A stretch of 64,000 bases of DNA, from the NCBI GenBank assembly GCA_009780315.1, contig WRAH01000010.1, positions 1-64,000 of the forward strand. Reading direction: 5' to 3'. Shown piece after piece: positions 3,261 through 55,209 of this stretch. The notes beneath the pieces are model-generated. The model made no database searches, was not told the DNA's origin, and saw only the letters and a program-made list of their open reading frames with translations. The first letter of the stretch is position 1. Every line of letters starts with the position of its first letter. The position numbers were made by a program, and so were the translations under genes. Source of the stretch: Defluviitaleaceae bacterium (GTDB lineage: Bacteria; Bacillota; Clostridia; Lachnospirales; WQUN01).

Positions 3261-3303
3261 AAAAAGGGACGGTTTGTTTTATCAACAAAACCGTCCCTTT
3301 TTT
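3261..3303. terminator. bidirectional terminator between convergent genes
   Basis: A long stem (AAAGGGACGGTTTG paired with AAACCGTCCCTTT) has A-rich and T-rich flanks on both sides. It serves the rubrerythrin unit on the plus strand and the ABC transporter operon on the minus strand. Confidence 0.85.
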
Positions 3304-4892
3304 TATGCAATTTTATCTAGTCTTACAATTTCATCAAATAGACATTGGAATCGCTCATCGTTTTCATGGGTTATAACAATGCATGTTAAGTTTTTGTCCG
3401 TAAACAAATCTGAAAGGATTTTACAAGAGGTTTCCAAGTCAATGCCAGATGTTATTTCATCCATAATCAAAATTTGGGGGTTGTGCAATAAAGCACGTGC
3501 AAGTACAATGCGTTGTTTTTCTCCACCAGACAAACCTGATGTGTTGGAAATGGGACGTGTTAAATCTTCTTCACTTGAAAGAAATTTGGATGCTCTAGTT
3601 ATTGACAACACGCGGTCAAGTTTAGTTTGTTCAGGGCGTTCTTCAAGAAATGTTAGATTGTTAAGTGCTGTATCGTTAAAGAGATAAGGGTCTTGGCGAA
3701 CATATCGCAAAATGCGGTTATAGTCTCCAGTATCAACATCTCTAATATCTTCTCCATCAATGGTTATGCTACCATCAAACGCCATAAACTCTAAAGCAAG
3801 GGCGCGGGCAATGCTGGTTTTTCCATATCCAGATGGTGCAAAGATGGCATATTTACCGCCTTTTTTAAAGTGAAGGTTTAAATTTTTCACTACATAAGTA
3901 TCTTCATCGTATTTTAATCCTAGCCCTTTGATTTCAATATTATGTTCAAAGGTAGCTTTCGGTACTTTGGGTGGTTCTTGGGGATTTTTTTCATTTGCTT
4001 TTTCCAGCAAGCCTTTTGCAGAGCGCATTCCGTTTAATCCTTCTATAAACTCCATGGTAGGGTGTCCTACATTTTGCATAAGGTTTGAAACTGTGATAAG
4101 CGCGCCCATGGCTATATCTCCAGTAATGACAAAATAAGAACCTAGTCCAATAGTAGTAAAAAATAAAGCAAAATTTGAATAGCGTCCGACAAGATTTGCT
4201 ATAGCTTCAAAAAATAACGCTTTCATGCGAGCCTTTTCAACAACTGCATTGGCTTGTTCATGTCTTTTTAAAAAGACATCTTGCTTGTCATAGGCTATGA
4301 TATCTCTTTGACCTTGTATGCAATCACGTGCAACATCTACATATTTTGAAGTTTCGTTTGAATAAGCTTTGGTACGTTTATTCATGCCTTTGCTAAAAGG
4401 GGCAGTGATAAAAGAAAATAGCAAAACAGCACCCAAAATAGCAAGTGTCAACCAAGGGCTTATCCAAATCATAGCACCTAAAGAAAGCACAATACGTGCT
4501 ATACGTGCGGCGGCCAAGGCTTTATGCGTATAATAATTATTCCTTAATACATCAATGTCTGCTGTAAAAAAACTTAAATCTTTATTGCTATCATCAATAG
4601 GGGTTTTTAAACGGCGACCAAAAAGAAAGTTCATACGTTGCCGTTTTGATAAAAAAAGCATTTCACTTACATAACTTATTCTAAAACGTACTGCAATAAG
4701 ATTCATAATAAAGTCTACAGGCCATATGCCTATAATCAGTGCAACCGTGAAAATAAGTGCAGAAAGGTCTTGTGTAACCGCCGCGTCCATTAGTGAGCCA
4801 AGCAAAAATGCTGTAGCCACTGATGTCACCGCAGTAAAAATAGCGAAAATAACAACAATGATAAAATGCAAGTGTGATTTTTTTGAACTCAT
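3303..4892 (-). CDS. ABC transporter, fused membrane and ATPase domains (second of pair)
   Basis: A 529-residue half-transporter with six predicted membrane segments (residues about 10-300) and a C-terminal ATPase domain. The ATPase has the signature LSGGEKQ, Walker B ILIMDE and the switch histidine VITHE. Its Walker A is APSGYGKT, with Ala where the first Gly normally stands. There is no N-terminal C39 peptidase, so it does not cut a leader. It is the last gene of the radical SAM peptide operon and probably forms a heterodimer with the next transporter gene to export the mature peptide. GGGAGG lies 7 bases before the ATG. Confidence 0.87.
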   Translation of the reverse strand: MSSKKSHLHFIIVVIFAIFTAVTSVATAFLLGSLMDAAVTQDLSALIFTVALIIGIWPVDFIMNLIAVRFRISYVSEMLFLSKRQRMNFLFGRRLKTPIDDSNKDLSFFTADIDVLRNNYYTHKALAAARIARIVLSLGAMIWISPWLTLAILGAVLLFSFITAPFSKGMNKRTKAYSNETSKYVDVARDCIQGQRDIIAYDKQDVFLKRHEQANAVVEKARMKALFFEAIANLVGRYSNFALFFTTIGLGSYFVITGDIAMGALITVSNLMQNVGHPTMEFIEGLNGMRSAKGLLEKANEKNPQEPPKVPKATFEHNIEIKGLGLKYDEDTYVVKNLNLHFKKGGKYAIFAPSGYGKTSIARALALEFMAFDGSITIDGEDIRDVDTGDYNRILRYVRQDPYLFNDTALNNLTFLEERPEQTKLDRVLSITRASKFLSSEEDLTRPISNTSGLSGGEKQRIVLARALLHNPQILIMDEITSGIDLETSCKILSDLFTDKNLTCIVITHENDERFQCLFDEIVRLDKIA

Positions 4893-4979
4893 GATATCCT
4901 CCCAAAAAATATGATAGCTGGCTAATGTTTAATATTATTTTATTGCTGGACACAGGACAACCTTGAGAATATCCTTTTT

Positions 4980-6653
4980 TTAACTTAAATGCACTCCTTT
5001 ATCCTCCACTACATATACCTCATCGCAAATGTCCATAGTGGCTTTGTCATGGGTAATAACAATACAAATTTTGCTTTGTGAAAGTCGTTTTATCTCTTTG
5101 TGTAAAATGACAATACTATCTTTATCAAGATTTGATGTAGGTTCGTCAAAAATGATTACAGGGCTATCTTGGTATAATGCGCGGGCTATGGCGACACGTT
5201 GCCCTTGACCACTGGATAACTCTGTTGCCCCTTCGCCAATGATAGTGTCATATCCCTCTGGCAAGGTTGTGATAAATTCATGTATACCCGCCGCAATTGC
5301 GGCTTTTTTCATAGTGGATTCATTCACATCATGTGTCATACATATGTTTTCTGTTATACTTCCACTAAATACATAGTCTGTGGGGGGGACATATGCCACA
5401 TGAGGTAAAATATTTTGCGTAAAGCAATCTTCTGTGTCTTTAAGTTTAACTGTACCTTTATGAGGTGTATAAAAGCCCATAATAATTTTTGACAGGGTGC
5501 TTTTTCCGCTACCGCTTTCACCTGTAATGGCTGTAATTTTACCTGGTAAAAAACTAAGGGAAACATCACGCAATACGGCATCATCATTGTTGTATTCGTC
5601 TTGATATGAAAAGGATACATCTTCTATCGCAAGTTTTGAAACTTTGTTGATAGGTGTATTTGGATATGAAGTTTCATCTGGCAAATGGGTAACAGAAATG
5701 ATGCGGGATACACCTGCTTTTGCTTCGGAAAATAGCGTTATATACTGGTTTAGAGATAAGACAGGACGGTATAAATTGCCGCGCAAAGCCATGATAGCCA
5801 ACACTTCACCTACGGTTAGCATTTCTCTCATAACAAAAAAACCACCCAAAGCATATACAGTGAATGTTAATAGTTCATTATATACATTGTTGACTTGGGC
5901 ATGATATGCACCAACTTTGGCGCGTTTTATAGATGCTTTCTCTTTTATAATGTTCAAACTCCTGTGTTTAGCAGCCAGTTTATCAATCATGAAAAATGCT
6001 CTAAAAAGAAATGCTTTTGAAAATCCTTCATGCATATTTTTGCGTACACTTTCCTCTGCTTTCGTCAACTCCTTTGCTCTCCGCTCTATTACAGGTGCAA
6101 ATCCATTCATAATTAAATATGCAATTGGAAGCGTAGCTGCAATAATCGCTGACAATTGCCAATTTATGAAAAACATCATAATGACAGAACCCAAAACCAT
6201 AAGCGTATTCCACACAAAACTCTCTGATAAAAAATCAAAAAGTGAAATTGTTTTTTGGGTGTCATCCGTTGTTAATGTCATAAGCTCTGCGGAATGCTTG
6301 TTTTGCATATCTTTATATTTGCGGCTGAAAAATTTTCTTAGTATATATTCTCTTAAACTAACCTGCATTCTGATGAAAACAATATGTCCTACATAATCTC
6401 TGACATATATACCTATACAAATGAAACTAACACCAATAGCTATGAGTATGGCAGAATACCCAATACTACCTTCGACTCCACCCAGCGTTACATCCACTAA
6501 ATTTATAGTGGCATGTATCATAATAAAAGCACCTGTTGATATTAACATTACAAAGAGGGTTTTAATGAGCAATAGATGTCTTACACCCTTAGTAAAAAAC
6601 CATGCAAAGTTTAAATACTTTTCCTTTTTTGTTTTCTTATTATTTTTCAGCAT
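4980..6653 (-). CDS. ABC transporter, fused membrane and ATPase domains (first of pair)
   Basis: A 557-residue half-transporter: membrane domain in residues about 25-310, then an ATPase with Walker A GESGSGKST, signature LSSGQGQ, Walker B VIIFDE and VITHD. It lacks a peptidase domain. It lies between the 32-residue Cys peptide gene (upstream, past a hairpin) and the second transporter gene, all on the minus strand. Together the two look like a heterodimeric exporter, with this subunit carrying the standard Walker A. The likely cargo is the neighbouring peptide, inferred from position only. Confidence 0.88.
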   Translation of the reverse strand: MLKNNKKTKKEKYLNFAWFFTKGVRHLLLIKTLFVMLISTGAFIMIHATINLVDVTLGGVEGSIGYSAILIAIGVSFICIGIYVRDYVGHIVFIRMQVSLREYILRKFFSRKYKDMQNKHSAELMTLTTDDTQKTISLFDFLSESFVWNTLMVLGSVIMMFFINWQLSAIIAATLPIAYLIMNGFAPVIERRAKELTKAEESVRKNMHEGFSKAFLFRAFFMIDKLAAKHRSLNIIKEKASIKRAKVGAYHAQVNNVYNELLTFTVYALGGFFVMREMLTVGEVLAIMALRGNLYRPVLSLNQYITLFSEAKAGVSRIISVTHLPDETSYPNTPINKVSKLAIEDVSFSYQDEYNNDDAVLRDVSLSFLPGKITAITGESGSGKSTLSKIIMGFYTPHKGTVKLKDTEDCFTQNILPHVAYVPPTDYVFSGSITENICMTHDVNESTMKKAAIAAGIHEFITTLPEGYDTIIGEGATELSSGQGQRVAIARALYQDSPVIIFDEPTSNLDKDSIVILHKEIKRLSQSKICIVITHDKATMDICDEVYVVEDKGVHLS

Positions 6654-6676
6654 GATACCATCCTTCTTTCATTAAC

Positions 6677-6722
6677 AAGAACAAAAAGACGATGTGATTA
6701 TGCACAAACGTCTTTTGTTCTT
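6677..6722 (-). terminator. hairpin between the peptide gene and the transporters
   Basis: A 14-bp stem (AAGAACAAAAGACG on the minus strand paired with CGTCTTTTTGTTCTT, one bulged T) lies just after the peptide stop. Such partial terminators after a precursor gene keep peptide mRNA in excess of transporter mRNA. The function is inferred. Confidence 0.65.
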
Positions 6723-6733
6723 ACAAGATAAAC

Positions 6734-6832
6734 TTACGCCTTACATCCTACATTTTCGGCTCCTTCACAAGGACATCCTGTGTTGTGTAAAGGATTGAAC
6801 CCTTGGTCAAAACTTTCTCTGATAATTTTCAT
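6734..6832 (-). CDS. 32-residue Cys-containing peptide, candidate radical SAM substrate
   Basis: A short gene with a strong ribosome binding site (AGGAGGT, 6838-6845) 5 bases before the ATG. The N-terminal half (MKIIRESFDQGFNPLHNTG) has no cysteine. The C-terminal part holds three (GCPCEGAENVGCKA). There is no signal peptide. This layout, a leader followed by a Cys-rich core, next to a radical SAM/SPASM gene and exporters, suggests a ribosomally made, modified peptide with thioether links (sactipeptide or ranthipeptide type). The peptide resembles no named family that I recognise, and the modification is inference. Confidence 0.72.
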   Translation of the reverse strand: MKIIRESFDQGFNPLHNTGCPCEGAENVGCKA

Positions 6833-6899
6833 ACGTACACCTCCTTTGCTTTTTTAATAAATGCTGTGTACTTTATATATGCAATGAGGAAGAGTTCCC

Positions 6900-8243
6900 C
6901 TACATACCAACAGAATATTTGAATTGGTTATATACATTGGCTTGCTGTTCTTTTTTATTGCACTCCTGTTGTTTTCCCTGTACTTTACCAAGTGGGCATA
7001 GACCACCGAAGCAAATCGGCAATATATTACATTCCTCGCATTTGTCATTTAAAAAGTTATATCGAACTACCCATGGCGCATGTTTTTGATGAAGAATATT
7101 AAATACACCCTCTTCTTCAACTTGTCCGATTTTGTTAAAATCATCATCCAATTTTAATGTGCATTTTAAAATTGCTCCATCGTAGTCTATGATAAACATA
7201 TTGGGTTTTGACGCGTAGCACAAACTATGAAATGGTTGAGAAAATACATTTTTCATTTCATTCTTTAACTCCAGACTTGCTACAATTTTTGCAATTTGAA
7301 TTTTAGACTCAACAAGATTTTCATTGGTTAATATATTAAGGTTGCTATCATTTTGTCCGCCCCATTTTTGCATATTGATATAACTTACGCTGAAACGAGG
7401 GTCATTGAAATTTTCTTTAATAAAACTATAAAAATCTTTAGCATGTGTTGTCATTTCTTCATCAAAATTAGAGCGTATAGTAATTTTAAAATCGTGGCCG
7501 GTACTTTTTGCGTACAGTAAATTAGAAACAATCGTTTCAAAAGATGGACTGCCATCTGCTTTGCATTTTCGGGCATCATGAGTAAGAGCCAGACCATCTA
7601 AAGTGATTTGAAAAAACTCGCAATTAACTGTGGCAAGCGCGTCAAATCGTTCAGGTGTTACAAGGGAGAAGTTTGTAGTAGCACTAGCGGTAAAAGGAAC
7701 ATCATGATTTTTACATATTTCCTTAGCTTGCTTTAAGAAAGCGATAACCTTATCGAATGGTAAAAAAGGCTCTCCGCCAAAAAGGTTAATTTGAACCGCA
7801 GAATGTAAATTCTTTTCAAGAGACTTGTCTATATAGGTTAATAAATTTCTATACACACTGTCAGTCATATACTTATCTTGTAAATCTTCATAACAGTACA
7901 CACAGCGAAAATTACATTGACGTGTAGGCAAAAGCGTGAGACTTAGAACATTTGATTTTAGAATAGTTTGCTCGTATTGATACAATGCCATTTCATACTC
8001 ATTGACACCAGTTTCCGCAAAAATACCGTGTTCATAAAAAACTTGGTGCATTTCGTCATCTTTATCATAATCAAAAACATAATGACTATCTTTATCAAGA
8101 AATTTTTTAAGCTTGTCTAAAAAGGGTTGTTCATCTATATGCAATATGGCACCACTTAAAGTGTTTGCTACAACATATGTACCATCATCACGGGGGATAA
8201 ACAAAGTATATTTACTTATTAAAAGTTGCTTTGACGCTGTCAT
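6900..8243 (-). CDS. radical SAM/SPASM peptide maturase
   Basis: A 447-residue enzyme. The radical SAM motif C-x3-C-x2-C is at residues 110-117 (CNFRCVYC), with the GGEP motif after it. The C-terminal SPASM region has the Cys cluster CEECNILPICFGGLCP plus further cysteines (C at SLCYA, ILKC, QECN), enough for two auxiliary iron-sulfur clusters. The N-terminal 90 residues may bind the leader, as in thioether-forming maturases. GGAGG precedes the ATG. It is the first gene of the minus-strand operon with the Cys peptide and two ABC transporters. Confidence 0.9.
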   Translation of the reverse strand: MTASKQLLISKYTLFIPRDDGTYVVANTLSGAILHIDEQPFLDKLKKFLDKDSHYVFDYDKDDEMHQVFYEHGIFAETGVNEYEMALYQYEQTILKSNVLSLTLLPTRQCNFRCVYCYEDLQDKYMTDSVYRNLLTYIDKSLEKNLHSAVQINLFGGEPFLPFDKVIAFLKQAKEICKNHDVPFTASATTNFSLVTPERFDALATVNCEFFQITLDGLALTHDARKCKADGSPSFETIVSNLLYAKSTGHDFKITIRSNFDEEMTTHAKDFYSFIKENFNDPRFSVSYINMQKWGGQNDSNLNILTNENLVESKIQIAKIVASLELKNEMKNVFSQPFHSLCYASKPNMFIIDYDGAILKCTLKLDDDFNKIGQVEEEGVFNILHQKHAPWVVRYNFLNDKCEECNILPICFGGLCPLGKVQGKQQECNKKEQQANVYNQFKYSVGM

Positions 8244-8331
8244 TAAATTCCTCCTTGAAAATAAATACCCACTGTTCTTTGGGTTTCGCTGGTTGATTAT
8301 GCTAAAAGTATAAGTGACTAAAAATAAAAAA

Positions 8332-8386
8332 GCTACACCTATTTTGATGTAAAAACAAATAATTTTTACATCAAAATAGGTGTAGC
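8332..8386 (-). terminator. perfect 24-bp inverted repeat; minus-strand terminator or attenuator
   Basis: Arms 8332-8355 and 8363-8386 are exact complements around a 7-base loop (CAAATAA). On the minus strand the stem is followed by a T run (GTAGCTTTTTT). It could end the transcript of the HTH-TPR regulator that reads through the antisense of the secreted peptide, or act as an attenuator in front of the radical SAM operon. It lies in the gap between the divergent radical SAM and secreted peptide genes. Confidence 0.7.
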
Positions 8387-8445
8387 ATAGGATGTCGAAT
8401 ATTGATATGCTTAAAGCAAAATATAGTCAAGGGAGATGTTTAAAC

Positions 8446-8613
8446 ATGATAAGAAAAAGTCGTATTGTTTCTAGGATGTTAACACTTGCTGTTGGTGCAA
8501 TGTTGGCAATGGGGTTGTTGTGGACAAGCCCAGCGGTTGTGAGTGCTGACACAAGCTATATTGAATCAATACCATTTGATTGTGATTGTCCAACTATTCG
8601 TCCTGTTAATTAA
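8446..8613 (+). CDS. 55-residue secreted peptide, candidate signalling pheromone
   Basis: The gene has GGGAG at 8431-8435, 10 bases before the ATG; longer in-frame starts lack a site. The product has a clear Sec signal peptide: positive start (MIRKSR), a hydrophobic core (residues about 12-26) and a cut site after SPAVVSA. About 21 residues would be released, with the centre SIPFDCDCPTIRPVN. It converges on an HTH-TPR regulator. Known RRNPP regulators (PlcR, NprR) use such secreted, reimported peptides, so a pheromone role is likely. It could instead be a second substrate of the radical SAM enzyme. Confidence 0.7.
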   Translation: MIRKSRIVSRMLTLAVGAMLAMGLLWTSPAVVSADTSYIESIPFDCDCPTIRPVN

Positions 8614-8619
8614 ATAAGA

Positions 8620-9531
8620 TTATTGTATTAAGATGCCGAAATTTTCTTCGGCATCTTTTTTTATTATTGCGGCACTTTCATTATCACCATGGGCGCGTGC
8701 GCAATAATATGCTTGCTCAAGATGACTTTTGTATACATACACTTCCTCTTTTAAAATGCGCTGACAGCAAGCGATATTATAATGTAGCCAAGGGGTATTG
8801 CCATAGGTGCTATATTTTTTTTCTAATTTAAGTGCTTCAAAAGAGGTGCTTAAAGCTTCTTCTATTCTTCCAGCTTTTCTAAGAAATCCTGCCAAGGTAT
8901 ACGTTAAAGAGGGGAATAAGATTCGCCTGTCATCCTCTGTAGTTTTAGCATTTTCTCTACCTTTAAGTATTGCTTTTATCAATTCAATACTTCTATCGTA
9001 TTCTTTTAAATCGTATAACTTAAATGCAATTTCAGTAACAATGAGAATCTCATGATATGTCATTCGCTTGTTGATTACTTCGGTTTCATTATAGTCTTTC
9101 ATTGTCATTTTGATAATTTTTTCAAGGTCAATGATAGCTTGTTCTGCTGTTAGGTCTTCGTTTGTAACAACATGTGCATAAGCGATAAACTGTTTGATAA
9201 AAGGTTCTTTTGCGAGCTTTGTTTTTTCAAAATATGGTAGAAACTTTCTTGCTTCATCAAGTCGGGAATTACTGCGTAATAGGAGATTAAGTTCACGATA
9301 TTTTCGATAGGCTTCATATTCGTCTGTGTCTAAATAAAGCATCCAAAAATTTTCTGTGGGTTGTCCTACTACTTGTGCGATTGACGCGAACTCCCAAATA
9401 GTTACATCCTTATATCCTTTTTCAATTTTGGATACTTTTTGCTGTGATATATTCAATTTTTCGGCTATGTCCGTTTGGCTTAAATTGGCTTCCTCACGCC
9501 ATTGTTTTAACGGTGTACTATTGATTTTCAT
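8620..9531 (-). CDS. HTH-TPR transcriptional regulator (RRNPP/Rgg-PlcR type)
   Basis: A 303-residue protein with an N-terminal Xre-type helix-turn-helix (residues about 8-62, SQTDIAEKLNISQQKVSKIE) and an all-helical C-terminal part with TPR-like repeats (residues about 90-300). This is the architecture of peptide-sensing regulators of the RRNPP family. AGGAGG lies 7 bases before the ATG. It converges on the secreted 55-residue peptide gene and lies next to the radical SAM operon. In streptococci, Rgg-type regulators control radical SAM peptide operons in the same setting; control here is inference. Confidence 0.82.
   Translation of the reverse strand: MKINSTPLKQWREEANLSQTDIAEKLNISQQKVSKIEKGYKDVTIWEFASIAQVVGQPTENFWMLYLDTDEYEAYRKYRELNLLLRSNSRLDEARKFLPYFEKTKLAKEPFIKQFIAYAHVVTNEDLTAEQAIIDLEKIIKMTMKDYNETEVINKRMTYHEILIVTEIAFKLYDLKEYDRSIELIKAILKGRENAKTTEDDRRILFPSLTYTLAGFLRKAGRIEEALSTSFEALKLEKKYSTYGNTPWLHYNIACCQRILKEEVYVYKSHLEQAYYCARAHGDNESAAIIKKDAEENFGILIQ
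8630..8663 (+). terminator. terminator of the secreted peptide gene
   Basis: Stem AAGATGCCGAA / TTCGGCATCTT with a 6-base loop and a T run. It lies inside the 3' end of the convergent regulator gene, so both transcripts overlap here. Confidence 0.85.
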
Positions 9532-9582
9532 AATAAGACCTCCTGCAATCTTTTAAGTACTAATGATGAAATTTTTTACTAG

Positions 9583-9630
9583 AAAAAACACACTAAGACA
9601 TGAAGAAATATTTTTCACGTCTTAGTGTGT
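9583..9630 (-). terminator. terminator of the 113-residue gene
   Basis: Stem ACACACTAAGAC / GTCTTAGTGTGT, followed on the minus strand by TTTTTT. Confidence 0.8.
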
Positions 9631-9640
9631 TATGCGCCCA

Positions 9641-9982
9641 TTATTTCTTCTTTAAAAATAATCTAGTCCCTGACCGTTCAAATACTATTGTATCACCTGC
9701 TTGACAATTGAGTACATCAAGGAATTTTTTATCCAGTGTTGCTGGTTCCCAATGACCAATTTCCATGTCTCCATTGTCGTCTGCCACTAACTCAATTGTA
9801 TTAGAATTATCAACGACTACTGCCTTAGCCTTGCTCCATCGTTTCCAGCCCCATTGGTTATAGAGCCTTGAGGGTAGATGTAACTTGCATTCTTTGTTTA
9901 GCTTACTTTCTAGGGGCACATTGTTTGCTTCATCAGATTCATCTTCAATCCGTGCCCACTCTCCTGGTGACATAATACCCAC
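9641..9982 (-). CDS. hypothetical protein, 113 residues
   Basis: Not recognised. It is soluble, with no signal or membrane segment. The first 30 residues are acidic (RIEDESDEANN) and the rest is beta-rich with a basic end (FLKKK). The motif CQAGDTIVFERSG is reminiscent of the swapped-hairpin AbrB fold, but this is weak. The GTG start at 9982 has AAGG 7 bases upstream; an ATG at 9973 has none. It forms its own unit, upstream of the HTH-TPR regulator and ended by a terminator. Confidence 0.6.
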   Translation of the reverse strand: MGIMSPGEWARIEDESDEANNVPLESKLNKECKLHLPSRLYNQWGWKRWSKAKAVVVDNSNTIELVADDNGDMEIGHWEPATLDKKFLDVLNCQAGDTIVFERSGTRLFLKKK

Positions 9983-10128
9983 GTGCGCGCCTTCTCTCTA
10001 AAATATATTTTTAATGGAGATATGTGACCTTTTGTAACTATTCACATGTGTATCCCACTAACAAACATTATATATGTTTTTCAATCAAATTCAAGTTGTG
10101 TTAATGACATTGTGAATACGATTGATAC

Positions 10129-10157
10129 TTGCATTATATTATTCTATTTGCTATTAT
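10129..10157 (+). promoter_or_regulatory. putative sigma-A promoter for the tandem peptides
   Basis: TTGCAT and TATTAT are separated by 17 bases, about 40 bases before the first peptide start. Only a moderate match. Confidence 0.4.
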
Positions 10158-10176
10158 TGCAATATAAGACAAAGTT

Positions 10177-10231
10177 TAAGAAACGAGTGTGGTTAATATG
10201 TTCTTTAGCTTTATATTTGCATTGATGTTTA
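10177..10231 (+). repeat. direct repeat, copy 1 (55 bp; copy 2 at 10316-10370)
   Basis: The leader and first 11 codons of the two small peptides match at 53 of 55 bases, 139 bases apart. The duplication includes the untranslated 21 bases before each start codon. Confidence 0.9.
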
Positions 10232-10293
10232 AAGACTTTAATCCTGTTCCAATTATACCGTTTAGTGGTGGAGAACCTCCATGTGGTTTTTAA
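10198..10293 (+). CDS. 31-residue hydrophobic peptide, copy 1
   Basis: A short gene starting MFFSFIFALMF, then KDFNPVPIIPFSGGEPPCGF. The hydrophobic N-terminus and the conserved C-terminal block PFSGxEPPCxF recur in the next copy, which argues that it is translated. There is no standard ribosome binding site. The 20 bases before the ATG (TAAGAAACGAGTGTGGTTAA) are shared by both copies. Short hydrophobic peptides next to HTH regulators are typical pheromone precursors (Shp-like) in Bacillota; the role is inferred. Confidence 0.6.
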   Translation: MFFSFIFALMFKDFNPVPIIPFSGGEPPCGF

Positions 10294-10336
10294 TAATATT
10301 ATAATCCCTAAATTATAAGAAACGAGTGTGGTTAAC

Positions 10337-10432
10337 ATGTTCTTTAGTTTTATATTTGCATTGATGTTTAGCGAATCTGATTTTATGGTAATTATGCCTT
10401 TTAGTGGGCCTGAACCTCCATGCGAATTTTAG
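10337..10432 (+). CDS. 31-residue hydrophobic peptide, copy 2
   Basis: A second peptide of the same length, starting MFFSFIFALMF and ending MPFSGPEPPCEF. The N-terminal 11 residues are identical to copy 1, the middle differs, and the C-terminal block is conserved. Substitutions fall mostly in the middle, which suggests that both ends are under selection. It lies 55 bases before the HTH regulator start and on the same strand, so the three genes may be cotranscribed. Confidence 0.6.
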   Translation: MFFSFIFALMFSESDFMVIMPFSGPEPPCEF

Positions 10433-10487
10433 TAATATTATAAACTAAATAATACTGGGCCTTTTTGAACGATAGGAGATGTTATTG

Positions 10488-11549
10488 ATGAAGCCAGAAA
10501 TAACAAAAGAATCTTTGATACAGGAGTTTCTTGTATTTACTTTTGTTTCAAAATCAGGTTTAAGAAAATTTATAATCAAGATTGAAACATATATGGATAA
10601 AAAACCACCAGATTTAGAACTAACGCTTATTTTAAGTACACTGAAAACTGTAAAAGCTGACAATGACCAACAAAGTTTTGAAGTCTGTTGTGCAACTGCA
10701 ACGCCAGCTTTTGAAGCGTTGAAGTCCATTCCAAAATGGGAGTACCTCCATCTTTACTGCATGTCTATACTTATTACGTATCGTTTCGTCTTTGATGAAT
10801 CATGGGTATTTTTTGGAAAGGCACTAAATGCATTAGAAAATTATAATGATGACAAATATTTACAAATTCGTACTGCATTACACTTTAACATGACTATGAG
10901 GATTTTGCGCACTAAATACCTTGAACCATCCATAAGCAATACAACGTTAAACGCTAAATTCTCCCAATGTTATGACTATGCTATGGATATATGTGTTAAA
11001 AGAGAACGACCACAACAGCACGTATTAAAAGTCAGAAAAGGCATTTATGACAACAATATGGAACTGATTAGAAAGGGCTTAACCACCCTGCGTAAACTTA
11101 AAGAGACTAAACGGTATAAAAATGCAAAGGCAGATATCGTTGAATATCTAAACTTTATGGAAGAAGATTTAACCACTGACTTGATGAACACACTACAAGG
11201 GTATCAAATAGGTAAAAGGCGTAGGGAGTTAAAACTATCAGTACTTGAACTAGCCGATTTGACAGGAATGGAAGAAACAACAATAAATGCCGTTGAGCGC
11301 GGCGATTGCGGTGTTTCGTCGGTTAAACTAAAAAGACTTTCTAAAGCCCTAAATGTAAGTGTAGACTACATTCTTGGAAACGACAGCGCGAAGCCAGAAG
11401 ATGAAGACATCTATGTCTCCCGCTTTAAAGCCTATACATCAAGGGCAACAAAAGCACAGAAGGAACTATTTATGAAATCTGTTTCCCTATGCGCAGAAGC
11501 TTTAAATCTTAGCGGCAGTGAAGCCGTACCCGATGAAAATAACGAATGA
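10488..11549 (+). CDS. HTH regulator with C-terminal Xre domain
   Basis: A 353-residue protein. Residues 1-235 are helical and unrecognised, possibly a TPR-like sensor. An Xre-type HTH lies at about 240-297 (SVLELADLTGMEETTINAVE). A charged tail follows. The HTH is C-terminal to the helical part, opposite to the usual RRNPP order. ATG 10488 is preferred because AGGAG (10474-10478) is 9 bases upstream. The two tandem 31-residue peptides lie directly upstream on the same strand. A strong terminator follows. The function is unknown; peptide-responsive regulation is a reasonable inference. Confidence 0.72.
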   Translation: MKPEITKESLIQEFLVFTFVSKSGLRKFIIKIETYMDKKPPDLELTLILSTLKTVKADNDQQSFEVCCATATPAFEALKSIPKWEYLHLYCMSILITYRFVFDESWVFFGKALNALENYNDDKYLQIRTALHFNMTMRILRTKYLEPSISNTTLNAKFSQCYDYAMDICVKRERPQQHVLKVRKGIYDNNMELIRKGLTTLRKLKETKRYKNAKADIVEYLNFMEEDLTTDLMNTLQGYQIGKRRRELKLSVLELADLTGMEETTINAVERGDCGVSSVKLKRLSKALNVSVDYILGNDSAKPEDEDIYVSRFKAYTSRATKAQKELFMKSVSLCAEALNLSGSEAVPDENNE

Positions 11550-11556
11550 AAACAAC

Positions 11557-11604
11557 AACGCCCCAAGGTAGAAAAGCATTTTCTACATCTTGGGGCGTTT
11601 TCTG
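11557..11604 (+). terminator. terminator, repeat copy 1
   Basis: Stem AACGCCCCAAGGTAGAAAA paired with TTTTCTACATCTTGGGGCG, then T residues. Near-identical copies lie at 12310-12355 and 13781-13826. Confidence 0.9.
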
Positions 11605-11716
11605 TTTAATTGCAAGTGATGATAGTAAGATATAAGGCTATTTTTTAAGTTGCTAATATAGACGTAATTATGGCATAATAATCACGTAATATTGACTTAA
11701 AAAAGGAGGAAAAACC

Positions 11717-11995
11717 ATGTCAACAGTTCCGACGATTAGACCCATTACCGAATTAAAAAATACAACCAACATTTCTAAACTATGCCACGAGATAAAAGCC
11801 CCTGTATTTATAACTAAAAACGGTTATAGTGACTTGGTAATAATGAGTATTGACACATACGAGCGAAACATGGCTTTATTAGAAATCTACAGCAAATTAG
11901 ATGAAGCAGAGGAACAATTTAAACTAGACTTGCCAACCAAAAGCCACAAGGAAATGACAAGTAGTTTACAGGGGCGTATAAGTGCAGAATTATGA
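11717..11995 (+). CDS. type II antitoxin, Phd/YefM family
   Basis: A 92-residue protein. The N-terminus (TIRPITELKNTTNISKLCHEI) and the ITKNGYSDLVIMSIDTYE block are typical of Phd/YefM antitoxins, which bind their own promoter and neutralise the toxin. The charged C-terminal third (EEQFKLDL) would wrap the toxin. AAGGAGG precedes the ATG. It overlaps the toxin gene by 14 bases. Fragments of this gene occur again at 12753-12788 and 13894-14010. Confidence 0.9.
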   Translation: MSTVPTIRPITELKNTTNISKLCHEIKAPVFITKNGYSDLVIMSIDTYERNMALLEIYSKLDEAEEQFKLDLPTKSHKEMTSSLQGRISAEL

Positions 11996-12302
11996 TATTC
12001 GTTATCTTCCAATAGCCGAAGACGACTTAAACGAAATAGTTGACTATCTGCTTGAACACAGTATAAACGCCGCCAATGAGTTTATAGATGGGTTAGAACA
12101 CTTATCGCAACAACTTTCAAATTATCCAGAATCAACACCGCTTATACGTAATAAAAAGCTACGAAACAGAGGGTATAGAGTGGCGATAGTTGGTGATTAT
12201 CTGCTGTTTTACACCCTGCGCAATGAATGCGTTTATATCATGCGGATTATTCACGGCAAAAGAAATTATTTGTCTTTATTACTTGATGAAAATAACAAAT
12301 GA
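11982..12302 (+). CDS. type II toxin, ParE/RelE superfamily
   Basis: A 106-residue protein with the ParE/RelE pattern: IRYLPIAEDDLNEIVDYL at the start, a central GYRVAIVGDYLLFYTL strand pair and the final MRIIHGKRNY. ParE members poison gyrase and RelE members cut mRNA; the exact target is not clear. It overlaps the antitoxin, so the two are translated together, and ends at the second copy of the shared terminator. Confidence 0.88.
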   Translation: MQNYDIRYLPIAEDDLNEIVDYLLEHSINAANEFIDGLEHLSQQLSNYPESTPLIRNKKLRNRGYRVAIVGDYLLFYTLRNECVYIMRIIHGKRNYLSLLLDENNK

Positions 12303-12309
12303 AAACAAA

Positions 12310-12355
12310 AACGCCCCAAGGTAGAAAAGCATTTTCTACACCTTGGGGCGTTTTT
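12310..12355 (+). terminator. terminator, repeat copy 2
   Basis: Same hairpin as at 11557, with TTTTT after the stem. Flanking bases on both sides (AAATAACAAATGAAAAC before, CTGTTGAATTGCAAGTG after) are also shared, so a unit of about 75 bp was copied. Confidence 0.85.
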
Positions 12356-12386
12356 CTGTTGAATTGCAAGTGTTTCATCGAATGGT

Positions 12387-12452
12387 CTATCGTTGCTTTT
12401 TGATTGCTCTGTAGTCTTTTTTGAAACGTGCGGAGTATCTAATCGTCAGCAT
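12387..12452 (-). pseudogene. YafQ/RelE toxin remnant after dinJ
   Basis: A start codon inside the end of dinJ opens a frame beginning MLTIRYSARFKKDYRAIKK, the N-terminus of YafQ-type toxins, but a TAG ends it after 21 residues. The following sequence runs into the terminator repeat. The toxin has been truncated and the antitoxin left as an orphan. Recognised from family knowledge of DinJ-YafQ order. Confidence 0.7.
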
Positions 12453-52135: not shown

Positions 52136-52291
52136 CTAGTTCCCTATTGCCAATCCACCACTCCATGGGTCTGGACATACACTCACATTCAAAGAGGGGC
52201 AAACTGTATTGCACACATTTGAGCAAACCGACGGGCAAACCGACTGGGTTTCCATCATGTCACAACACATACCTTGAATTAAATAATCCAT
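52136..52291 (-). CDS. 51-residue Cys-rich peptide, candidate thioether peptide precursor
   Basis: GGAG is 8 bases before the ATG. The N-terminal part is MDYLIQGMCCDMMETQS. The core region is CPSVCSNVCNTVCPSLNVSV and then CP, which gives five cysteines spaced C-x3-C-x3-C-x3-C-x7-C; a Gly-rich tail ends it (WSGGLAIGN). There is no signal peptide. It lies directly after a radical SAM/SPASM gene on the same strand. Regular Cys spacing is the hallmark of sactipeptide and ranthipeptide substrates. The exact family is not recognised. Confidence 0.78.
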   Translation of the reverse strand: MDYLIQGMCCDMMETQSVCPSVCSNVCNTVCPSLNVSVCPDPWSGGLAIGN

Positions 52292-52376: not shown

Positions 52377-53708
52377 TTAACTAGAGATAGTTTTTGAACC
52401 AGGTTTACTCTTATTAATGCGATGGGCAATTATTTTTTGTGATACGGTGATTAAGTAGCTTTCAAGCTTATATTTGTAAGTGCTACAGGTATCTTGATCG
52501 TTTACCCTTCTATAAGGGCATCCACCCATACACACAGGCAATAAATTGCAATCAGAACATATTGAATTTTCTGTAGCATCGTGCAACATATAGTTTAGAT
52601 GTAACGTATCATTCGCATTCGAGTTTATCAATAGATTTCCTATAGAGGCGTCTATATTACCAATGTCCACCCAGCACTTGTAAAGGAAACCACTGGCATC
52701 AATCACAAACGAGTTGACAGCATCAGCTGTACAGACATTGCTTTTGATACGTGGATATCTAAAGTTATATCCCAGCTCATCAATATATTTACTAAAATAA
52801 TCAAAATCAACTTCAGAAAAACCGCATATATCAAAACACTTAGAGGCGTCATAGGTATTGTTGTCTGGATTTACCTTTCCGAGATAGGGCTTCACTTTAT
52901 CAAGCAAATTCAATTTTGATAAGAGACTCATAACATCTTCCGCTTGCTTGACATTATATTTATCAACATTCACCCTAATTGAAACAGGTGGCAAAATATC
53001 TTTACTTTCAAGAAGGTTTCCTAAAATAGTGTCAAATGTGCCAAAACCATCAATGAGTGGTCTACGTTGGTCGTGCATGTCCTTGTTGCCATCAATGGTT
53101 ACTTGCATAGATGAAACCTGAAGTTTCTTTAACAGCTCTGCGTTTTCTCTTGTTAAAAGATATCCGTTAGTGATGATGTTGCTATTGTATGCAATACCAT
53201 TTTCTTCGCAAATATCTAAAAACGATTTCGACATCCTCTCTACAATATCCAAAGCCATAAGAGGCTCGCCACCATACCACGCCACACTTAAATAAGACAA
53301 GGTATTAGCTTGCGATCTAACTAAATCAATGATTTTATCCTGAACTTCTATTGACATATAATTTGGCTTAATTATATCCTCTTCATAACAGTATGTGCAA
53401 CGAAAATTGCAATCTGTTGTCGGTGTGATGGTGAGTCCTAAAGAACGAGTTTGATACCTGCTTTTTAGCATACGTAGTCGTAAAAGACCTAGTTCATCAC
53501 ATTCGCTATCAACAAGAAATCGACCAACCTTTAGTTGCTCTAAAAATTCTTTGTCTTCAATGTTCTTTCCGCTATCAATAAAACAAGTAAAAACTTTATA
53601 CTTGTCCTTGTCCATCAACGCTAGAGCATTTGAGAATGAATTATATGCAATAATTTTATCACTATCGGCTTCATGCGGAAAAAAGAAATTGTAATTTGAT
53701 GCTTTCAT
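52377..53708 (-). CDS. radical SAM/SPASM peptide maturase
   Basis: A 443-residue enzyme: radical SAM motif CNFRCTYC at residues 100-107, AWYGGEPLM after it, and a SPASM end (CSDCNLLPVCMGGCPYRR, plus C at FLYKC and SNVC). The N-terminal 90 residues are a possible leader-binding domain. It differs clearly from the maturase at 6900-8243. Only the peptide gene follows it; no transporter or protease is adjacent. A promoter with an operator-like palindrome lies upstream. Confidence 0.9.
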   Translation of the reverse strand: MKASNYNFFFPHEADSDKIIAYNSFSNALALMDKDKYKVFTCFIDSGKNIEDKEFLEQLKVGRFLVDSECDELGLLRLRMLKSRYQTRSLGLTITPTTDCNFRCTYCYEEDIIKPNYMSIEVQDKIIDLVRSQANTLSYLSVAWYGGEPLMALDIVERMSKSFLDICEENGIAYNSNIITNGYLLTRENAELLKKLQVSSMQVTIDGNKDMHDQRRPLIDGFGTFDTILGNLLESKDILPPVSIRVNVDKYNVKQAEDVMSLLSKLNLLDKVKPYLGKVNPDNNTYDASKCFDICGFSEVDFDYFSKYIDELGYNFRYPRIKSNVCTADAVNSFVIDASGFLYKCWVDIGNIDASIGNLLINSNANDTLHLNYMLHDATENSICSDCNLLPVCMGGCPYRRVNDQDTCSTYKYKLESYLITVSQKIIAHRINKSKPGSKTISS

Positions 53709-53952: not shown

Positions 53953-55209
53953 TTAAGCAACTTGTACCAGATTAAAGCTTAATTTTTTAGCTTCAGCGGC
54001 TAACTTGTGTAGACAAGCGGATTCCTGTTTTAACTTTGCAGCTTCAAGTTTTTCTTCGTTATAAACATCTTGGTTCTTCAAAAGGTTATAGGTAATAGCG
54101 AGTATTTTTCTAGCCAATGCAATAACAGCCTTTTTAGCACCACGCCGCTGTTTGACCTTCCAATAAATTTTGAAAGGTATGAGCTTCTAACCCAAACAGC
54201 CGACCAAGCGCACTCGCAAATTATGCCTTTGATGTAGGGGTTGCCAAAAGTGATTCTTGTACTTTATTTTACCAGCACTCGTATTGTCACCTGGAACAAC
54301 ACCAGCCTAAGAGCAAAAATGTTCTGCCGTAGGAAATTTACTCATGTCAGATCCTATTTCGCCAACAATGGCGGTGGCAGAAGTTAATCCAATGCCCGAG
54401 ATTGTGCTAAGACGCTCAATATCATCATTCCATTTGGCGGACAATTCGCTAATGGATTCTTCAATAGTTTCAAGATGTGTGAGTAAGCCGTCTAGCAAGG
54501 TGATTTGCAGTTGTAAAAAGTACCGCTGTTTTTCAGTAAGTTTACCATTTATGGCTCGCTTAATATCAGCTTTCTTTTCTTTTGATATGCGACGTGTTTC
54601 ATTGTCTACATCATGGGGTAAAAGCTTGCCATTTTTAATAAGGACGCTAATGCGATTTCTGCCCGAAACACCAAATACGTCAGAAAGGAATGATGACAGC
54701 TTGAACCCTGCTTGCTGGAGTGTTTTCTCAATACGGTTTTTCTGCGTATTTATGTCCTGTACAACATTCTTGCGGTATCTGGTTAATTGTCTTAATTCCC
54801 GAACATCTTGGGGTGGTATGAAACTTCCAGCCAAAAGACCCGCATGCAAAAGACCTGCAATCCACTTTGCACCTTTCATATCTGTCTTTTTGCCAGGGAC
54901 GTTGCGCATATGGCGGACATTGGTGACTAAGATATTCATTTCGTCACCACAAGCATCTTCAATAGCTTCATAAATGGGATGCCTGTATATGCCTGTGCTT
55001 TCCATTGCTACATTGGTACAGTTTTCTGATTCAAGCCGCTCTCTAAGTTTTACTAGTTCATCAGGAAAAGTGCCGAAAACTCGTATTTCCTTTTCAACAT
55101 CAGCACTAGATTGTTTTGATTCTGATGTTGTGCAAGTTTTAAGAATACACGCGACAACAGAATCCTTGTGGACATCCATTCCACAGCAGTTGTGTAAGAT
55201 TGTTTGCAT
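53953..55209 (-). pseudogene. IS110-family transposase, decayed
   Basis: The intact part (55209-54307) has the DEDD domain: MDVHKDSVVACIL, AMESTGIYRHPIYEAIED, KTDMKGAKWIAGL, and the start of the transposase_20 domain (STISGIGLTSATAIVGEIG). A TAG (54307-54309) stands where Trp is expected (HFCS-stop-AGVVPGDNTSAGK). Further down, frame changes occur before KQRRGAKKAVIALARKI and the end at 53953. The C-terminal serine region is thus lost. ATG 55209 has GGAGAG upstream. Confidence 0.85.

Follow-up and report, generated by a model that had tools for sequence, protein, structure and literature searches.

How would an uncultured gut clostridium decide when to make a radical S-adenosylmethionine (SAM)-modified peptide? 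The question is raised by a locus in a 64,000-nucleotide stretch of DNA (the window) from a Defluviitaleaceae bacterium (assembly GCA_009780315.1, contig WRAH01000010.1, positions 1 to 64,000), which is contig C10 of a genome with 73 contigs and 2.9 Mb; several of the closest relatives among those compared are uncultured Defluviitaleaceae metagenome-assembled genomes (MAGs; Lachnospirales in the NCBI taxonomy), a group that has been reported in termite guts (PMC7024585). Here an operon encoding a radical SAM maturase, a Cys-containing precursor of a ribosomally synthesized and post-translationally modified peptide (RiPP) and two ATP-binding cassette (ABC) exporters lies beside genes for a 55-residue secreted peptide and a helix-turn-helix/tetratricopeptide repeat (HTH-TPR) regulator (Table 1). 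An initial annotation, which had placed every open reading frame (ORF) correctly, proposed that the secreted peptide acts as a signal through the regulator to control the Cys-peptide operon, and this proposal gave the best fit in our comparative tests as evidenced by: 1) the co-occurrence of peptide and receptor; 2) the likeness of the receptor to PlcR; 3) a PapR-like core in the peptide; 4) one symmetric promoter/operator shared by both transcription units. We consider it probable that the locus is a quorum-sensing-controlled RiPP operon, with the peptide, a PlcR-like receptor and the symmetric promoter driving the maturase operon. The gene content, the receptor fold, the linkage of peptide to receptor and the symmetric promoter with its recurrence were each established by computation. 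As annotated, the genes for peptide and regulator converge, but the peptide gene is divergent from the maturase operon, a point on which the annotated layout needed correction. Two features had been overlooked, namely a palindrome between the peptide and maturase genes and a second, different receptor/peptide pair at 10189-11549.

The regulator carries an HTH_3 domain at residues 8-53, and an AlphaFold model built from 21 relatives folds as HTH plus TPR with a mean predicted local distance difference test (pLDDT) score of 90.5. Three comparisons place PlcR first: a profile of the receptor family (hmmsearch) matched PlcR over its full length at 2.8e-19, before Rgg and ComR; the two best Foldseek matches of the model were both PlcR (1.1e-6); and VIA-align gave PlcR Z scores of 21.4 and 20.6 (root-mean-square deviation (rmsd) 2.4 over 209 TPR residues), with the next, unrelated proteins at about 16. 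Rgg, tried as the closest receptor, was ruled out on the same three measures. On sequence profile and predicted structure, the regulator thus belongs to the PlcR clade of RRNPPA receptors, with an N-terminal XRE HTH followed by a PlcR-fold TPR domain. A plasmid search for the receptor returned zero matches.

To gauge the linkage of peptide and receptor, we collected 85 distinct regulators from the profile search and asked for a convergent ORF of 30-85 codons with a ribosome-binding site (RBS) and a signal-like hydrophobic segment, ending -40 to +160 nt from the regulator stop; such a peptide accompanied 39 of the 85 regulators vs. 6 of 199 other genes of the same loci. Pro-Phe occurs in the tails of 11 of these 39 peptides, where 2.8 would be expected (reached in 0 of 2000 shuffles), and its distance from the C-terminal end is 8-12 residues in every case: SIPFDCDC in the window, then TIPFDVAH, APFSIGDD, TPFCILDP, TPFDIGGN, NPFIIGSN, IPFCEISP, EPFHYKEN, APFNYKHP, QPFFDQPE and HPFTPDDV. 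The window peptide is 48% identical (E 1e-18) to that of L150, a locus on contig C15 of the same genome with a 70% identical paralogue of the regulator, and both share YIE[ST]IPFD. For comparison, PapR7 reads ADLPFEF and the internal segment PapRa7 reads CSIPYEY (PMC3519770), the critical PapR residues being Pro, Phe and Glu (PMC6568020). Based on the Pro-Phe enrichment and the likeness to PapR7 and PapRa7, we predict ESIPFDC as the core in the window, and the 55-residue Sec peptide is probably the pheromone of the HTH-TPR regulator. The initial annotation had pointed to the 21-residue C-terminal peptide; the signal is likely an internal segment around ESIPFD and not necessarily that whole tail. 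One may ask if the secreted peptide is instead an effector or antimicrobial, with the modified Cys peptide as the signal or with the regulator sensing something else. The presence of the Pro-Phe motif in only 11 of 39 peptides would suit such a reading, as would the small Cys peptides that are targets at some loci, but the secreted peptides track the receptor rather than the maturase, are kept convergent to it, and are also found with receptors that have secreted proteins or ABC transporters as targets; we regard this alternative as very improbable.

The palindrome is a perfect inverted repeat at 8332-8386, with 24 nt per arm (GCTACACCTATTTTGATGTAAAAA and TTTTTACATCAAAATAGGTGTAGC) around a 7-nt centre, and its score of 24 compares with at most 8 in 60 dinucleotide shuffles. 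A repeat score of at least 12 was found upstream of 27 of the 39 peptide genes, centred 74-122 nt before the start codon, vs. 23 of 187 controls, and 6 of the 12 top control scores seem to stem from these very repeats, read from the side of the divergent target gene. For the 22 loci scoring at least 14, the best -10 box reached 5.0 on one side and 5.1 on the other vs. 4.2 in shuffles. In 18 of these loci both -10 boxes lie equally far, to within 1 nt, from the centre of the dyad, even as the distance itself runs from 39 to 52 (permutations: mean 6.4, maximum 14, n=20000). As the -10 boxes lie outside the arms, the repeat itself does not generate this symmetry. Most simply, each arm would hold one receptor site, equally spaced from its promoter, so that pheromone and target would be switched together. 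The repeat sequence varies by lineage and is common to the closest receptors (the window, L150 and the related locus L028; also L189 and L193); that of L028, TTTTACATAAAAATAGATGTGG, is near-identical to TTTTTACATCAAAATAGGTGTAGC, as is that of L150, and the arm sequence is kept in the three in spite of different flanking genes. A genome-wide regulon of the palindrome was considered and rejected, since the window and the paralogous C15 locus alone stand out and other matches with 3 mismatches are at control level. An Rfam search at the locus gave zero matches to RNA elements.

Several observations weigh against the quorum-sensing reading. Under the rule used, 46 of the 85 receptors have no peptide. 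The Lys pair that contacts PapR is only partly kept (PlcR K87 corresponds to R86, K89 to N88), a partial sharing of TPR groove contacts that is expected if the peptide differs. The PlcR box TATGNAN4TNCATA has no match between 8243 and 8446, and its count in the window is not above chance. Repeat similarity does not follow receptor similarity over all loci (Mantel rho about 0), with the closest pairs alone agreeing; such a lack of overall correlation is expected for fast-changing private operators. Furthermore, of the 22 loci, 12 have a T-run after the repeat toward the operon and 3 have one toward the peptide gene, and the window repeat scores as an intrinsic terminator toward the operon, with a stem and then T6 on the minus strand. 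Given that the receptor gene, the antisense of the peptide gene and the operon are in line on that strand, the palindrome may additionally end receptor transcripts before they reach the operon. That this is all it does, keeping receptor transcription out of the operon while the receptor acts elsewhere or at another site, we deem improbable: a terminator does not need perfect or near-perfect arms as long as 22-34 nt, the flanking -10 boxes keep register with the dyad on either side, and the arms are conserved where the flanking genes differ.

The direction of control can be approached from the -35 positions: those of the window, L028 and L150 agree with the consensus at only 2-3 of 6 bases, as suits activator-dependent promoters; together with PlcR being an activator, this leads us to favour activation. 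In the reverse arrangement, peptide-free receptor would sit on the palindrome and repress both promoters until released by the peptide, in the style of TprA/PhrA. TprA is a PlcR orthologue over a lantibiotic cluster whose genes rise in a tprA mutant (PMC6753895), and both the ending of the repeat arms at the -35 region and the enrichment across loci of -35 hexamers with at least 4/6 matches (45% vs. 13%) would fit derepression, but with those poor -35 positions and an activator as the closest fold we find it unlikely. Under quorum-sensing control by activation, the 55-residue peptide would be exported by Sec, processed extracellularly to a short form around ESIPFD and imported by an oligopeptide permease (seven SBP_bac_5 oligopeptide-binding proteins in the genome could serve this role) for binding by the PlcR-like receptor. 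The loaded receptor would then bind the palindrome, with one identical site per divergent promoter, and turn on the pheromone gene, as positive feedback, together with the maturase-precursor-exporter operon; the maturase would putatively cross-link the Cys residues of the precursor, and the two ABC proteins would export the product. This scheme suggests that the modified peptide is made only when enough neighbours are present.

Residues 110-117 of the maturase form the CX3CX2C radical SAM motif, and this motif and the SPASM Cys residues are invariant in A1; relatives that are 41-59% identical come from MAGs of Defluviitaleaceae, Tissierellales and Lachnospiraceae. Assignment to a known RiPP family was tried and rejected, the precursor having no match and the maturase falling under every family-level NCBIfam cut-off: CefB (NF038107), the Cys-every-fifth family, scored best at 181 of 600 bits, short of membership, followed by Clo7bot (147/600), TIGR04463 (141/525) and PapB (113/340). 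As for sactipeptides and ranthipeptides, Cys residues in the precursor and a SPASM enzyme are both present, and thioether chemistry is putative. Precursors beside homologous maturases share a leader M-x-[IVTL]-[IVL]-R-[EDSNT] ahead of a Cys-containing core, as in MKIIRE...GCPCEGAENVGCKA of the window and MTVIRD...NNCPVNNFAAGCGK of L028. The leader was found in 12 precursors at 8 homologous maturase loci (the window and seven others) vs. 1 of 140 background small ORFs, a background that includes the window, so that the single match may be the precursor itself; the leader-bearing precursors include three tandem copies in L016 (6216-6936), that of L018, and GCGCGC-type precursors in L029, L032, L033 and L036. 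The ABC proteins have ABC_membrane and ABC_tran domains and no peptidase domain in Pfam, bearing out their annotation as transporters without a peptidase domain; half-transporter 1 is 48% identical to its counterpart in L028 and 41% in L016, and half-transporter 2 matches the model of the streptosactin exporter GggC weakly (125 of 750 bits). Phage records with maturase-like proteins were weak matches, at 24-28% among the matches listed, and uninformative. Elsewhere in the window, a second radical SAM maturase lies at 52377-53708 on the minus strand with a Cys-rich precursor, MDYLIQGMCCDMMETQSVCPSVCSNVCNTVCPSLNVSVCPDPWSGGLAIGN, at 52136-52291, and directly upstream of it is a gene at 54307-55209 that we take by eye to be an IS110-type transposase.

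Table 1. Features of the locus, in window coordinates.
Feature	Position	Strand	Remark
ABC exporter half-transporter 2, 529 aa, no C39 peptidase	3303..4892	-	ABC_membrane + ABC_tran (Pfam)
ABC exporter half-transporter 1, 557 aa, no C39 peptidase	4980..6653	-	ABC_membrane + ABC_tran (Pfam)
RiPP precursor, 32 aa, three Cys, MKIIRESFDQGFNPLHNTGCPCEGAENVGCKA	6734..6832	-	strong RBS AAAGGAGG
Radical SAM/SPASM peptide maturase, 447 aa	6900..8243	-	Radical_SAM PF04055; SPASM TIGR04085 over own cut-off
Predicted -10 box TATACT, maturase operon	8307..8312	-	19 bp beyond palindrome arm
Left arm of perfect inverted repeat, GCTACACCTATTTTGATGTAAAAA, candidate operator	8332..8355		100% over 24 nt
Right arm of perfect inverted repeat, TTTTTACATCAAAATAGGTGTAGC	8363..8386		
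Predicted -10 box TATGCT, pheromone gene	8406..8411	+	19 bp beyond palindrome arm
Candidate Sec-secreted pro-pheromone, 55 aa; predicted mature region after AVVSA	8446..8613	+	
Predicted pheromone core ESIPFDC	8563..8583	+	compare PapR7 ADLPFEF, PapRa7 CSIPYEY
Predicted intrinsic terminator of pheromone transcript, within last codons of receptor gene	8630..8657	+	hairpin kept in L150, L028
PlcR-like HTH-TPR receptor, 303 aa	8620..9531	-	HTH_3 above cut-off + sub-threshold TPR match (Pfam)

The gene order recurs in L028, L017 and L023. In L028 the maturase is 59% and the regulator 45% identical, with a 60-residue secreted peptide in the corresponding place; L017 has a double-length regulator of 645 residues; and in L023 the maturase is only 28% identical and the precursor unrelated, implying that the signalling pair has been joined to two maturase lineages. 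This recurrence in three other genomes, and that of the leader motif beside the maturases, indicate an association at the locus of more than chance, and judged on sequence comparison relatives retain the maturase, the 32-residue Cys precursor and the two ABC exporters as one conserved block. Both the precursor and the secreted peptide proved to be conserved beside homologous maturases, a point on which the initial annotation had staked its proposal. In L016 (maturase 48% identical), an Agr-type system comprising a histidine kinase, a LytTR regulator and AgrB (8693-12441) is divergent from the maturase, suggesting more than one origin or exchange of peptide-signal control for such RiPPs. The regulator is also found at loci that lack a RiPP, as in L150, where it faces a secreted 218-residue protein. 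The layout of a pair with a two-way symmetric promoter recurs in dozens of related loci: the divergent gene encodes a radical SAM protein at 6 of the listed repeat loci, of at least two distinct maturase lineages, and other targets across the palindrome are secreted proteins, ABC transporters and, at some loci, small Cys peptides. These data suggest a portable control module that maturase lineages have recruited repeatedly.

Three further observations concern these related loci. At L017 9395-9540, a precursor gene (MKTIRDKAYFQARHNTGG...) with its RBS is apparently inverted in place, antisense to the 3' end of the maturase gene, and a core-like GCPCR* remains on the other strand, which may reflect a local inversion, a phase switch or an assembly artefact. 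A DUF5085-type gene lies between pheromone and target in L028 (6442-6954) and L154 (1550-2017), as a possible further member of the module. Double-length receptors of ~640 aa, with two receptor-like units in tandem, occur in L017, L153, L200 and others, many of them with convergent secreted peptides.

The initial annotation had presented the locus as a clostridial counterpart of the streptococcal Rgg/SHP systems, whose control of radical SAM peptides is established (PMC13361665). The placement of a radical SAM operon beside an RRNPP pair agrees with this, but PlcR/PapR and TprA/PhrA, rather than Rgg/SHP, are the nearest relatives; nor does the convergent layout depart from described cases as it had held, since Group III Rgg/SHP pairs are convergent (PMC13361665) and tprA2 lies on the strand opposite phrA2. 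With PlcR/PapR and PlcRa/PapRa of the Bacillus cereus group the locus shares the receptor fold, the full-length profile match, a Sec-type propeptide, a core of the form L/I-P-F/Y-E/D, internal in PapRa, and a palindromic operator, here a candidate; it differs in that papR is downstream of plcR whereas the window peptide gene is convergent, that the 16-bp PlcR box is dispersed whereas the window has one private long palindrome between two divergent promoters, and that in the window a RiPP operon is the local target. In Streptococcus pneumoniae, TprA/PhrA and TprA2/PhrA2 likewise combine a PlcR-family receptor, a small peptide on the opposite strand and an adjacent RiPP cluster, which for TprA2/PhrA2 is a lantibiotic cluster (PMC5436883). 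In contrast to the lantibiotic target of TprA/PhrA, that of the window is a radical SAM peptide, and PhrA works through a C-terminal heptapeptide whereas the window core is predicted to be internal. The streptococcal Rgg/SHP-controlled radical SAM RiPPs (streptide, tryglysin and streptosactin) have an RRNPP receptor and peptide beside a radical SAM operon, with ABC exporters, but the window receptor is PlcR-like and Rgg structures score lower, the SHP is a short hydrophobic PptAB substrate whereas the window peptide has a long Sec signal peptide, and the precursor families differ. Among maturases, CefB, Clo7bot, TIGR04463 and PapB are the nearest families, all SPASM enzymes acting on Cys-containing peptides; the window enzyme, under all their cut-offs, is a member of none. 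RRNPP_detector has listed 196 clusters beside RRNPP systems, including ones in Clostridiaceae and Tissierellaceae (PMC10075063), and RiPP clusters beside RRNPP systems outside streptococci are therefore not new. In the literature searched, we did not find described this Defluviitaleaceae receptor/pheromone family, its pairing with these maturases or the mirror-symmetric promoter rule.

The second regulator (10479-11549) adds another layer. Its model (pLDDT 89.6) starts with an Rgg-like TPR domain, which matches residues 72-287 of Rgg144 at Z 17.2 (rmsd 3.3 over 203), and ends in an XRE HTH. The domain order is reversed relative to RRNPPA receptors, which are described as having an N-terminal HTH (PMC12700828). 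The peptides of this pair are encoded at 10198-10293. This reversed-domain receptor has 19 matches in its own genome; short hydrophobic SHP-like peptides with [IVMRT]PF motifs precede 10 of 13 such receptors examined vs. 0 of 60 other genes, and one locus carries four tandem peptide copies. A reversed-domain receptor lies within about 2.3 kb of 4 of the 7 PlcR-like receptors in the genome (chance about 3 in 10,000): C10 (the window), C15 (L150), C12 (L151) and C17 (L152), with AbrB-like genes in between in C10 and C15. The window and C15 share a block of PlcR-like receptor, AbrB-like gene, peptide and reversed receptor, and their targets across the palindrome differ. We speculate, with rather less than even confidence, that the PlcR-like pair is half of a portable two-receptor cassette, in which the private promoter drives any target across the palindrome and the second half, often next to the first, comprises the reversed receptor, a new kind among RRNPP receptors, with its short hydrophobic xPF peptides. 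If this is true, the genome would run many parallel private peptide channels.

Taken at its probable value, the quorum-sensing reading adds uncultured gut Clostridia, with a PlcR-type receptor, to the bacteria in which radical SAM peptides come under peptide quorum sensing. The signature of a convergent secreted peptide plus a palindrome with -10 boxes in register predicts the receptor, the pheromone core, the operator and the target together, and the induction of silent RiPP clusters thus becomes directly testable with synthetic peptides.

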